DNA of 64,000 nucleotides from Haloplanus sp. XH21. Lineage in GTDB: Archaea > Halobacteriota > Halobacteria > Halobacteriales > Haloferacaceae. Location: contig NZ_JALLPL010000001.1 of assembly GCF_023276355.1 (NCBI RefSeq), forward strand, positions 310,001 through 374,000, read 5' to 3'. The first letter of the stretch is position 1, and each line of letters opens with the position of its first letter. The position numbers and the translations under genes are program-made. The notes below the pieces were generated by a model that saw only the letters and a list, made by a program, of their open reading frames with translations, was not told where the DNA came from and searched no databases. Shown one piece after another: positions 47,392 to 50,455 of the stretch.

Positions 47392-47462
47392 GGGACCGTG
47401 GGGTAGTGGTATCCTCTGCGCATGGGGTGCGTTGGACCCGTGTTCGAATCACGGCGGTCCCA
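47392..47462 (+). tRNA. tRNA-Pro (anticodon GGG)
   Basis: A complete 71-base cloverleaf is readable. The acceptor GGGACCG pairs with CGGTCCC and the discriminator is A. The T arm CCGTG/CACGG encloses TTCGAAT. The anticodon loop ATGGGGT gives GGG after the invariant T and before G37. There is no intron and no encoded CCA. It lies 92 bases after truB and immediately before the A+T-rich island, so it may have been an integration site; I found no second copy of its 3' end at the island's far side. Confidence 0.95.
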
Positions 47463-47560
47463 CTTTGCTTTCGAGGTGATCGATGTCTCTACTGTTGAGT
47501 GGGTAGCTTGGCGGTTTACTCCGCGAAATGGCCCACGATAATATCAAACGGTAGGTCACG
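47463..47560. other. Junction between tRNA-Pro and the accessory island
   Basis: I see no gene here. The stretch is the start of a region whose composition is unlike the flanking core genes. No duplicated tRNA end or integrase fragment could be recognised. Confidence 0.4.
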
Positions 47561-47724: not shown

Positions 47725-48039
47725 GTGATTGGAAACATCGGTTCGTACGTCGCTGAATACATCGGTGTATACGGTGAGGATCTATTCGACCGGAGTGTCG
47801 AGGAACTCGCGGCTGATCCCGGCCGTTCGGTGTCTGAGGCGTGCCCCGAACAGGACGGTTGGGAACTTGACGGCATCGGCATCGTTGATCGAGACGGCGA
47901 ACCACGCCACGAGGTTGAGAATACAGGTGTTGAATATATTCAAATCGACGGCGCTGAACATCCCGATCCGCCGAAGAAGTTACCACCAGATCGTCCAACA
48001 CCAAATTCAACTGAATCCACGTTGCGAGCGGACGAATAA
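47725..48039 (+). CDS. Hypothetical protein, 104 residues, accessory island
   Basis: The reading begins at a GTG. The protein is acidic, with MIGNIGSYVAEYIGVYGEDLFDRSVEELAADPG, then a proline-rich end. I do not recognise a domain. An overlapping frame of similar length is basic and is rejected as a shadow. It has no visible partner apart from its position in the island. Confidence 0.45.
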   Translation: MIGNIGSYVAEYIGVYGEDLFDRSVEELAADPGRSVSEACPEQDGWELDGIGIVDRDGEPRHEVENTGVEYIQIDGAEHPDPPKKLPPDRPTPNSTESTLRADE

Positions 48040-48161: not shown

Positions 48162-48356
48162 ATGAGTAACCCCTATCGCGAGGACATCTTGGTCGTGAAG
48201 ATCAGGGAGGGGTTGTATGAGGCGCTCTTAGAGTCATCAAGCGTTGATATGGAGAATATCGATTCGATCACCTTTCAGAAGCTTCTCCTGAAATCGATTG
48301 ATCACTTCAATCTTCGTGACGAAATCACTATTCAGTGGTATCTTGACGGGAAATAG
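48162..48356 (+). CDS. Hypothetical protein, 64 residues; probable N-terminal part of a frameshifted gene
   Basis: The 64-residue frame begins MSNPYREDILVVKIREGLYE and ends DEITIQWYLDGK. Directly at its stop a second frame (48347 on) continues with REIVGNTLARRGEFGKKDLLDQANEY, which has no proper start of its own. Inserting one base near 48347 would make a single protein of about 355 residues with the next gene. I do not recognise a family. The DNA is clearly richer in A+T than the chromosome around it. Confidence 0.6.
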   Translation: MSNPYREDILVVKIREGLYEALLESSSVDMENIDSITFQKLLLKSIDHFNLRDEITIQWYLDGK

Positions 48357-48400
48357 TAGGGAATACACTAGCTAGAAGGGGAGAATTCGGGAAAAAGGAC

Positions 48401-49228
48401 TTGTTAGATCAGGCTAACGAGTATCACCTGTCTAATACGCCGGATGTTGAGGATATCGCTGATTTCTATCTTGCAATGGAAGCCCCCTCATTCAGCGAAT
48501 TTGTCCGCAGATCGAGCATCCGGTATCTTCGGGAATACTACAGTGAGAGCGATCACATTCCGTACAGAGACCTATACCTGCACAATTTGGATATCCATGA
48601 AACCCTGACTGATGGTGCAGGTCAATTGAGCAACGGGGAACCCCCGGATGATTTTGAAGAAGATATTCGGAGAGATTGCCAACGTTTGAAATTAGATCTG
48701 CTAATGCATGAAGAATTCTCTCAGGTCATCCCTTACGAGAAGGTGTTTGAACAAGTCGCCACATCAATTTCGAATTGGGCAGTAGAGGATACTGAGACAG
48801 ACACCGATACCAAAACGTCGCTAATCGTCCATTGTGACGGGTTTTATTACGAAGGACTGTGGCGGGCTATCGCTTGTATCATTAGTCGAAACAATGTGCG
48901 TGGTCCATACGAGGATCAAGTTCAAAAACGACGGCTTGGAGAGTTGTCTGCGCACAGGGAGGAGTTCATTGATCGCTACCGATCACTCAAAGAAGAGGCA
49001 GAAGAGGCTGGTTTGGAGTTAGCCCGCCCACCACAAAATCTTCCCAACCTCGCTGAAGAGGAAAAGAAAGACCATCAGTGGTTGGATGACAACCGCAGTA
49101 ATCCGGACTACGAGACCCAAGATCTACCGATGAAGGAAGCAGCGGACAAGAGCATTAATGAGCTGGTATCAGACGATGATTCTGGCCAACCACTCGCAGA
49201 GATGATCGTAGAAGAGCGGAGACGATAG
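48401..49228 (+). CDS. Hypothetical protein, 275 residues; upstream partner of a PIN-domain nuclease
   Basis: The listed start is a TTG at 48401, but the frame stays open and reads naturally from 48347 (REIVGNTLARRGEFGKKD). It is therefore probably the C-terminal part of a gene beginning at 48162. The protein is helical and charged (FYLAMEAPSFSEFVRRSSIRYLREYYSES; RYRSLKEEAEEAGLELARPPQNLPNL), with no known motif. The last 30 residues, SINELVSDDDSGQPLAEMIVEERRR, resemble the flexible tails by which antitoxins bind PIN toxins, but this is inference. It ends six bases before the PIN gene, so the two are co-transcribed. Confidence 0.55.
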   Translation: MLDQANEYHLSNTPDVEDIADFYLAMEAPSFSEFVRRSSIRYLREYYSESDHIPYRDLYLHNLDIHETLTDGAGQLSNGEPPDDFEEDIRRDCQRLKLDLLMHEEFSQVIPYEKVFEQVATSISNWAVEDTETDTDTKTSLIVHCDGFYYEGLWRAIACIISRNNVRGPYEDQVQKRRLGELSAHREEFIDRYRSLKEEAEEAGLELARPPQNLPNLAEEEKKDHQWLDDNRSNPDYETQDLPMKEAADKSINELVSDDDSGQPLAEMIVEERRR

Positions 49229-49234
49229 GTTCTA

Positions 49235-49675
49235 ATGCCTGTCGTATATTTTGACACCTGCGCTCTTGCTAAACGCTACTACAGGGAACCGGGGCACAGG
49301 AAGGTGAAAGAGTTAGTTGGCAACCCCGCAAATACTATCGTTTTTAGCAATATCGGCGTTGTCGAAATGTCCTCTGTTATTCATAAAAAGATTCGTAATA
49401 ACAATCTCACCAGCCAAAATGGCCGACTGCGGCTGGCACGGTTTGTTTTTGAAACTAAACGAGACTATCTGACACTACCCGCCGATAATGATTTTTTAAA
49501 GAAATCACTCGGGTATGTAAACAAGCATGGTCTAACGACACTTGATTCCATCCACTTTGCTACGGCAAAGAAAGTTGAAAGCGAATGTTCAAATTTTGTG
49601 TTCATTAGCGCAGATTCAGCCCTAGTCGATGCGGCAAAAGCCGAAAATATGAATTATGTTAATCCGGATCCGTGA
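49235..49675 (+). CDS. PIN-domain ribonuclease (VapC-like)
   Basis: The 146-residue protein has the four acidic residues of the PIN active site: Asp7 in VVYFDTCALAKRYY, Glu44 in GVVEMSS, Asp104 in LTTLDSIHFATA and Asp127 in FISADSALVDAAKAE. Its length and order match VapC-type toxins, which cut RNA. The usual small AbrB, RHH or Phd antitoxin is absent. The gene directly upstream, six bases away, encodes the unrecognised 275-residue (or about 355) protein. The codon use and base composition are unlike the core genes, in keeping with recent transfer. Confidence 0.85.
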   Translation: MPVVYFDTCALAKRYYREPGHRKVKELVGNPANTIVFSNIGVVEMSSVIHKKIRNNNLTSQNGRLRLARFVFETKRDYLTLPADNDFLKKSLGYVNKHGLTTLDSIHFATAKKVESECSNFVFISADSALVDAAKAENMNYVNPDP

Positions 49676-50034: not shown

Positions 50035-50361
50035 TCACTCCTCCACGAACACGAACGCCTCCTCCTCACCATCGGACACCCACACCTCCCCCACCTCCGT
50101 CTTCTCCACCGGCACCTCCCGCCGCCGGCCCATCGCGCCAACCTCTTTGGTCGGGAACTCCTCGTCCGGTTCGGCGATTTCGATGGCGGAGTGCGCGAAC
50201 AGATACTGGGGCGTGATGCACATATCGCCGGAGATGTCGCCGCGGATGACGCCGTCGCCGGTGAACGTGATCGCCTGTCGATAGGGGCGCTTGCACGCCG
50301 GACACGTGCCGCCGTGGGGTTGCTCGTCGGGATCGCCGGTCATGATGCGCTCGTCGTCCAT
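50035..50361 (-). CDS. CxxC zinc-binding hypothetical protein
   Basis: The 108-residue protein starts MDDERIMTGDPDEQPHGGTCPACKRPYRQAITFTG and has one CxxC pair near 20, then strands typical of a small beta domain. The C-terminal part is charged. I see no second cysteine pair, so zinc would be bound by dimerisation or not at all. A possible role is as a regulatory or ribosome-associated small protein; I do not recognise the family. It diverges from the lipoprotein gene. Confidence 0.6.
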   Translation of the reverse strand: MDDERIMTGDPDEQPHGGTCPACKRPYRQAITFTGDGVIRGDISGDMCITPQYLFAHSAIEIAEPDEEFPTKEVGAMGRRREVPVEKTEVGEVWVSDGEEEAFVFVEE

Positions 50362-50455
50362 ACTGCACGGTCTACGGGCAGAGGCGCATAGCGTTTGCGC
50401 ACCGTCGCCGAGTGGGACCGAACGCCATTTACGTCGGTCGCGCAGAAAGAGAGGT

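Follow-up and report, generated by a model that had tools for sequence, protein, structure and literature searches.

The window, by which we mean the whole 64-kb stretch of DNA analyzed here, belongs to a 2.94-Mb genome in three contigs. It contains, next to a tRNA-Pro(GGG) gene, a segment of low GC content in which a putative antitoxin gene, spread over two reading frames at 48162–49228, is followed by a gene for a VapC-type PIN protein (Table 1). The first-pass annotation of this DNA had described the upstream gene as split, one frame beginning at 48162 and ending at WYLD and another continuing from 48347, and had stated that a single base would unite them into a protein of about 355 residues. 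Both frames were found as described; the offset between them was -1 (or +2), and the joined product was approximately 356 aa long. Because the switch between the frames is flanked by the stop codons TGA at 48344 and TAG at 48354, it was confined to the interval 48347–48356. Given the local composition, the probability that the downstream frame is open by chance was approximately 6e-8. The first candidates for a start codon in this frame were TTG at 48401 and, as the first in-frame ATG, the codon at 48476.

Table 1. Positions of the features of the predicted module and of one interrupted relative.
Feature	Position	Strand	Description
tRNA-Pro(GGG)	47392..47463	+	Borders, on the left, the AT-rich and genus-variable segment containing the module
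Lower-GC segment	47466..50050	.	Between tRNA-Pro and the conserved gene 50035-50370
N-terminal part of the predicted antitoxin	48162..48356	+	64 aa; ends with WYLDGK and stops TAG TAG; from the ORF list and the family HMM
Frame-switch interval (net -1)	48347..48356	+	CGGGAAATAG; without a canonical X_XXY_YYZ heptamer
C-terminal part of the predicted antitoxin	48347..49228	+	293 codons open; helical domain and VapB-like tail PLAEMIVEERRR
VapC-type PIN nuclease, predicted toxin	49235..49675	+	146 aa; PF01850; D7, E44, D104, D127
Stretch of L052 with an inserted transposase gene	L052:1100-3750	- (gene)	Transposase of 381 aa; its gene interrupts the linker of a relative of the predicted antitoxin

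A family HMM was built from the relatives of the predicted antitoxin, with the window sequence left out. The 64-aa part matched this model at positions 4–63 with an E-value of 1.1e-16, and the 293-aa part matched it separately at positions 94–304 with an E-value of 3.9e-42. The N-termini of single-frame relatives resembled the 64-aa ORF of the window. Both halves were located in one frame in 69 of the 75 non-redundant members. The exceptions besides the window were two members with transposase insertions (L021 and L052), two truncated ORFs (L110 and L112), and L117, the match of which began at model position 23. These results indicated that 48162–49228 is one broken gene, not two. The single-frame homologues of the joined protein for which the annotation had proposed a search were thus present, and homologues carrying the two parts as separate genes, which it had named as speaking against the union, were absent apart from the two transposase insertions.

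The protein encoded by the downstream gene matched PF01850 with an E-value of 2.9e-9 and a score of 38 bits (cut-off 23.6). All four catalytic acids were present, and they aligned with the acids of VapC relatives; the protein thus combined a PIN domain above the Pfam cut-off with the four acidic residues of VapC. The gap of 6 bp between the antitoxin stop and the start of the PIN ORF was also as first annotated, namely a four-acid PIN nuclease six bases after the upstream gene. Relatives of the window PIN protein, with 28–34% identity, were matched in 16 of the 391 genomes of the window's class, including the window's own. In other haloarchaea, these relatives were located directly behind mutually alignable, VapB-like ORFs of 62–67 aa. 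In the window, the gene preceding the PIN gene was not a short VapB but the broken member of the approximately 356-aa family. A sequence search of the PDB with the window PIN protein yielded no relative.

The upstream gene, which had been called unrecognized, was a member of a family without a Pfam, NCBIfam, or PADLOC model. None of the members scored above the cut-offs of Pfam or NCBIfam models, and the matches to the libraries, PADLOC included, were scattered single hits. With the C-terminal part as the query, matches were obtained in 39 of the 391 genomes of the class, nearly all of them in ORFs of 330–460 aa without internal stops; a 12-member profile gave matches in 70 of the same 391 genomes (approximately 18%). 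The named family members were haloarchaea, and a second search, which covered the phylum, added members from two more families (f15 and f20), both outside the class of the window. The window antitoxin shared 29% identity with its nearest relative. When genome contigs were searched with the window antitoxin protein, nothing was found, and a subfamily query found only four loci. Neither the antitoxin nor the PIN protein had a match on viral contigs, with none in phages, and no PDB relative was found by sequence for the antitoxin profile. A literature search limited to open-licence papers did not yield an earlier description of the archaeal family. From these comparisons, the predicted antitoxin of the window belongs to an unannotated archaeal family.

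The proposal that the two genes form a candidate toxin-antitoxin module was well supported by the neighborhood of the family. Directly downstream of 71 of the 75 members lay an ORF of 60 aa or more on the same strand, and these toxin-like genes included bona fide MazF/PemK genes. The chosen start of the partner was no more than 20 bp from the antitoxin stop in 64 of the 75 members, an overlap of 4 bp was found in 27, and the order of antitoxin and then partner was kept in the f15 and f20 genomes. The family therefore showed the two-gene operon and the conserved adjacency to toxin families that characterize type II systems. When the partner ORFs were grouped by phmmer, the largest cluster consisted of 52 large proteins of approximately 215–270 aa with weak matches to PIN models, the cluster matching VapC26 with an E-value of 3.6e-4. 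The partners in f15 and f20 were again large PIN-like proteins with the sequence motif FVDTC/FLDTS. Nine partners were of the MazF/PemK type, and the two that were tested against PF02452 gave E-values of 3e-16 and 3e-13. The remaining partners were a 170–180-aa class (L053 and L061), which matched no Pfam family, four 150-aa proteins, and singletons. The VapC partner was found in the window only and stood alone among the phmmer groups. In the antitoxin tree, the window was sister to a clade with the 170–180-aa partner (SH-aLRT 100), and at least four changes on the tree were required to explain the partner labels. The simplest reading would be that the antitoxin lineage of the window captured VapC from a classical VapBC module.

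The four 150-aa partners (L017, L024, L066, and L067) were related to one another, shared a QFRAGDxMRGYCVFAD... motif, and matched no Pfam or PDB family; they are possibly an unrecognized toxin family. An assignment as RelE-like, suggested by motifs seen by eye, was rejected, and because it had neither a Pfam nor a PDB RelE match behind it, this partner was left unclassified. Matches of the same cluster to Aurora kinase, with E-values of 0.05 and above, were taken as chance. At L005 / L062 (G124), the antitoxin was intact and the halves of the toxin gene were located in two frames; in L062, a frameshift appears to have broken the toxin and not the antitoxin.

The 64-aa part of the window antitoxin bore a Panacea-like core motif (QKLLL...ITIQWYLDG). 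In a profile-profile comparison by hhalign, the N-terminal segment aligned with haloarchaeal PF13274 proteins with a probability of 87%, an E-value of 3.6e-6, and a score of 36.2, whereas column-shuffled profiles scored 8.5 +/- 1.7 and at most 15; the aligned region comprised only 33–39 columns. The Panacea core motif K-L-L/F-Y/F-L ... Y-x-x-G(P) was recovered in this comparison. There was no PF13274 match above the Pfam cut-off in the window protein or in the 57 members scanned. AlphaFold models of a relative (mean pLDDT of 68) and, separately, of the N-terminal segment (mean pLDDT of 69) were of low confidence, yielded no usable fold, and had no PDB match. At the other end of the protein, the last residues PLAEMIVEERRR resembled the tails of VapB proteins, e.g. 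LSEMVDEGREERI. The window tail scored 11.7 against VapB tails, the best of the 75 family tails (runner-up 7.0; shuffle p 0.007), in a comparison over a short stretch that was picked after the likeness had been seen. Because the comparison was post hoc, the full VapB profile did not match the window antitoxin significantly (E-value of 0.09), and the DDDPLxE segment was common to the close relatives of the window antitoxin, the VapB-like tail was treated as a lead only.

In L052 (Salinibaculum litoreum HD8-45) and L021, a transposase gene was located between the N- and C-terminal parts of the antitoxin, and both the C-terminal part and the PIN gene were intact despite the insertion. The frameshift of the window separates the two parts in the same manner. 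We infer that the C-terminal part may neutralize the toxin and that the N-terminal part may be dispensable for survival, although cases of a broken antitoxin beside an intact toxin gene number only three and the toxin could simply be inactive.

The segment that holds the module had a GC content down to approximately 0.45 versus 0.65. Four genomes of the same genus were collinear with the window up to the tRNA gene, the segment 47466–50050 was not conserved, and three of the four rejoined the window at the gene near 50050 after 2.2–6 kb of unrelated sequence. After tRNA-Pro, relatives held unrelated genes at the matching place (L148–L151). Within the window, the 3' end of the tRNA gene was not found repeated in direct orientation, as it would be for an integrated element. 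Just upstream of the module, at 47725–48036, there was a 104-aa ORF without a match in Pfam or NCBIfam.

The first-pass annotation had not decided whether the shift is a mutation, an error, or a programmed event. Because the family HMM matched both halves and the members were mostly single-frame (69/75), we consider a lesion (mutation) of the window copy or a sequencing error more likely than programmed frameshifting. With an error in sequencing or assembly, which is a tenable reading, the living strain would carry an intact, ordinary module of the family. All members that were neither cut by an insertion nor truncated were single-frame, the downstream frame continued across its 293 codons without a further stop, and the toxin gene was intact, all of which fits such an error. 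However, the switch interval contained only GGG and AAA runs and no long homopolymer, and approximately 7 kb of conserved neighbor genes, compared with the small sample of same-genus genomes, had no obvious frame break; these unbroken frames are weak evidence for a sound assembly. Programmed -1 slippage at 48347–48356, which would yield low amounts of full-length antitoxin, could draw on a frame overlap that is exactly the interval needed with both frames open, and on some RNA structure downstream of it. We nevertheless rejected it as the leading idea and regard it as very improbable, because a canonical slippery heptamer was absent from the ten-base interval, the downstream RNA fold was unremarkable with a z-score of only -1.3, and no single-frame relative had a frame break at this place.

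If the lesion is real, it is quite conceivable that the two frames now give two functional proteins, with the C-terminal part, started from TTG 48401 or ATG 48476, alone neutralizing VapC and the N-terminal peptide being expendable. The two relatives cut by insertions at a comparable place, in which the C-terminal part and the PIN gene were kept, are consistent with this reading, whereas a clear ribosome-binding site or ATG was absent near the break, and the same limits of three cases and a possibly inactive toxin apply. Another alternative is that the pair is not a toxin-antitoxin module and forms a two-gene system for antiviral defense or RNA processing, in which the PIN protein would be the effector and the helical protein a regulator. 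The genus-variable spot beside tRNA-Pro and the difference of the large PIN proteins from classical VapC would suit such a system, but the partners of the family included the classical toxin families MazF/PemK and VapC, the PADLOC matches were scattered, single, and weak, and no link to other defense genes was found. We therefore consider this alternative improbable, and the defense role that had been proposed alongside the toxin-antitoxin role gained no specific support beyond the variable position next to a tRNA gene.

The locus is thus probably a type II-like toxin-antitoxin module of two genes, with an antitoxin that comes from a partner-swapping family and is frameshifted in the window. 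In such a module, the second gene would encode a VapC-type PIN ribonuclease as the toxin, and the first gene, once in one frame, would encode a mostly helical antitoxin of approximately 356 aa from the unannotated archaeal family, which appears to have exchanged toxin partners several times. The C-terminal part of the antitoxin would bind and block the toxin, in this case possibly with the VapB-like tail reaching the PIN active site, and the N-terminal Panacea-like part may be regulatory or sensory. The net -1 shift, through mutation or sequencing error, would part the N-terminal from the C-terminal half, and, if the shift is real, the cell probably lives either with a re-initiated C-terminal antitoxin or with an inactive toxin. 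The sequence comparisons show a single broken gene, the family to which it belongs, the adjacency and diversity of the partners, and the intact acids of the PIN protein; from these we infer toxicity, binding, the neutralizing part, and sensing.

Antitoxins that swap partners have been described chiefly for bacterial Panacea and a small number of other domains. A family from archaea whose partners are large PIN proteins, MazF, and VapC would supply toxin-antitoxin annotation that archaeal genomes lack, and copies broken in nature beside an intact toxin gene suggest a direct way to tell the neutralizing part from the sensing part. The window resembled VapBC modules (a PF01850 PIN toxin with a short DNA-binding antitoxin) in its VapC-type PIN protein with four acids, in the PIN relatives of other haloarchaea noted above, and in the VapB-like tail of the antitoxin, and differed from them in that the antitoxin was a protein of another family and not a short DNA-binding VapB. 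Like MazEF/PemIK, the family had PF02452-type toxins directly behind nine of its members; however, the antitoxin was not MazE/PemI, and the PF02452-type toxin was not present in this window. The family also resembled Panacea (DUF4065, PF13274; PanA/PanT; Kurata et al. 2022, PMC8832971; Ernits et al. 2023, PMC10440598), with the antitoxin gene mostly upstream, many unrelated toxins including RNases, partner swapping, and a QKLLYLA ... Y-x-x-G core motif that aligned in the profile comparison. PanA antitoxins neutralize their toxins directly or via attached elements, for example Phd-C, and a sensor role has been proposed for Panacea (PMC8832971, PMC10440598). In contrast to Panacea, no member of the family passed the Pfam model, the proteins were approximately 330–400 aa long, their C-terminal region, which is large, helical, and conserved, is absent from standalone Panacea, and the commonest partner was a large PIN protein. 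We propose only tentatively, as a somewhat doubtful extension, that the family is an unrecognized archaeal counterpart of Panacea in which a removable, Panacea-like N-terminal sensor is joined to a helical C-terminal part that, with an exchangeable tail, neutralizes at least four kinds of toxin; the window would then represent a fresh capture of VapC together with its neutralizing tail, in a cell that survived without the sensor. Outside the window, at G000:C1:239176-239484 (L040, L172), the same genome also carried a true PF13274 (SocA_Panacea) ORF of approximately 200 aa.
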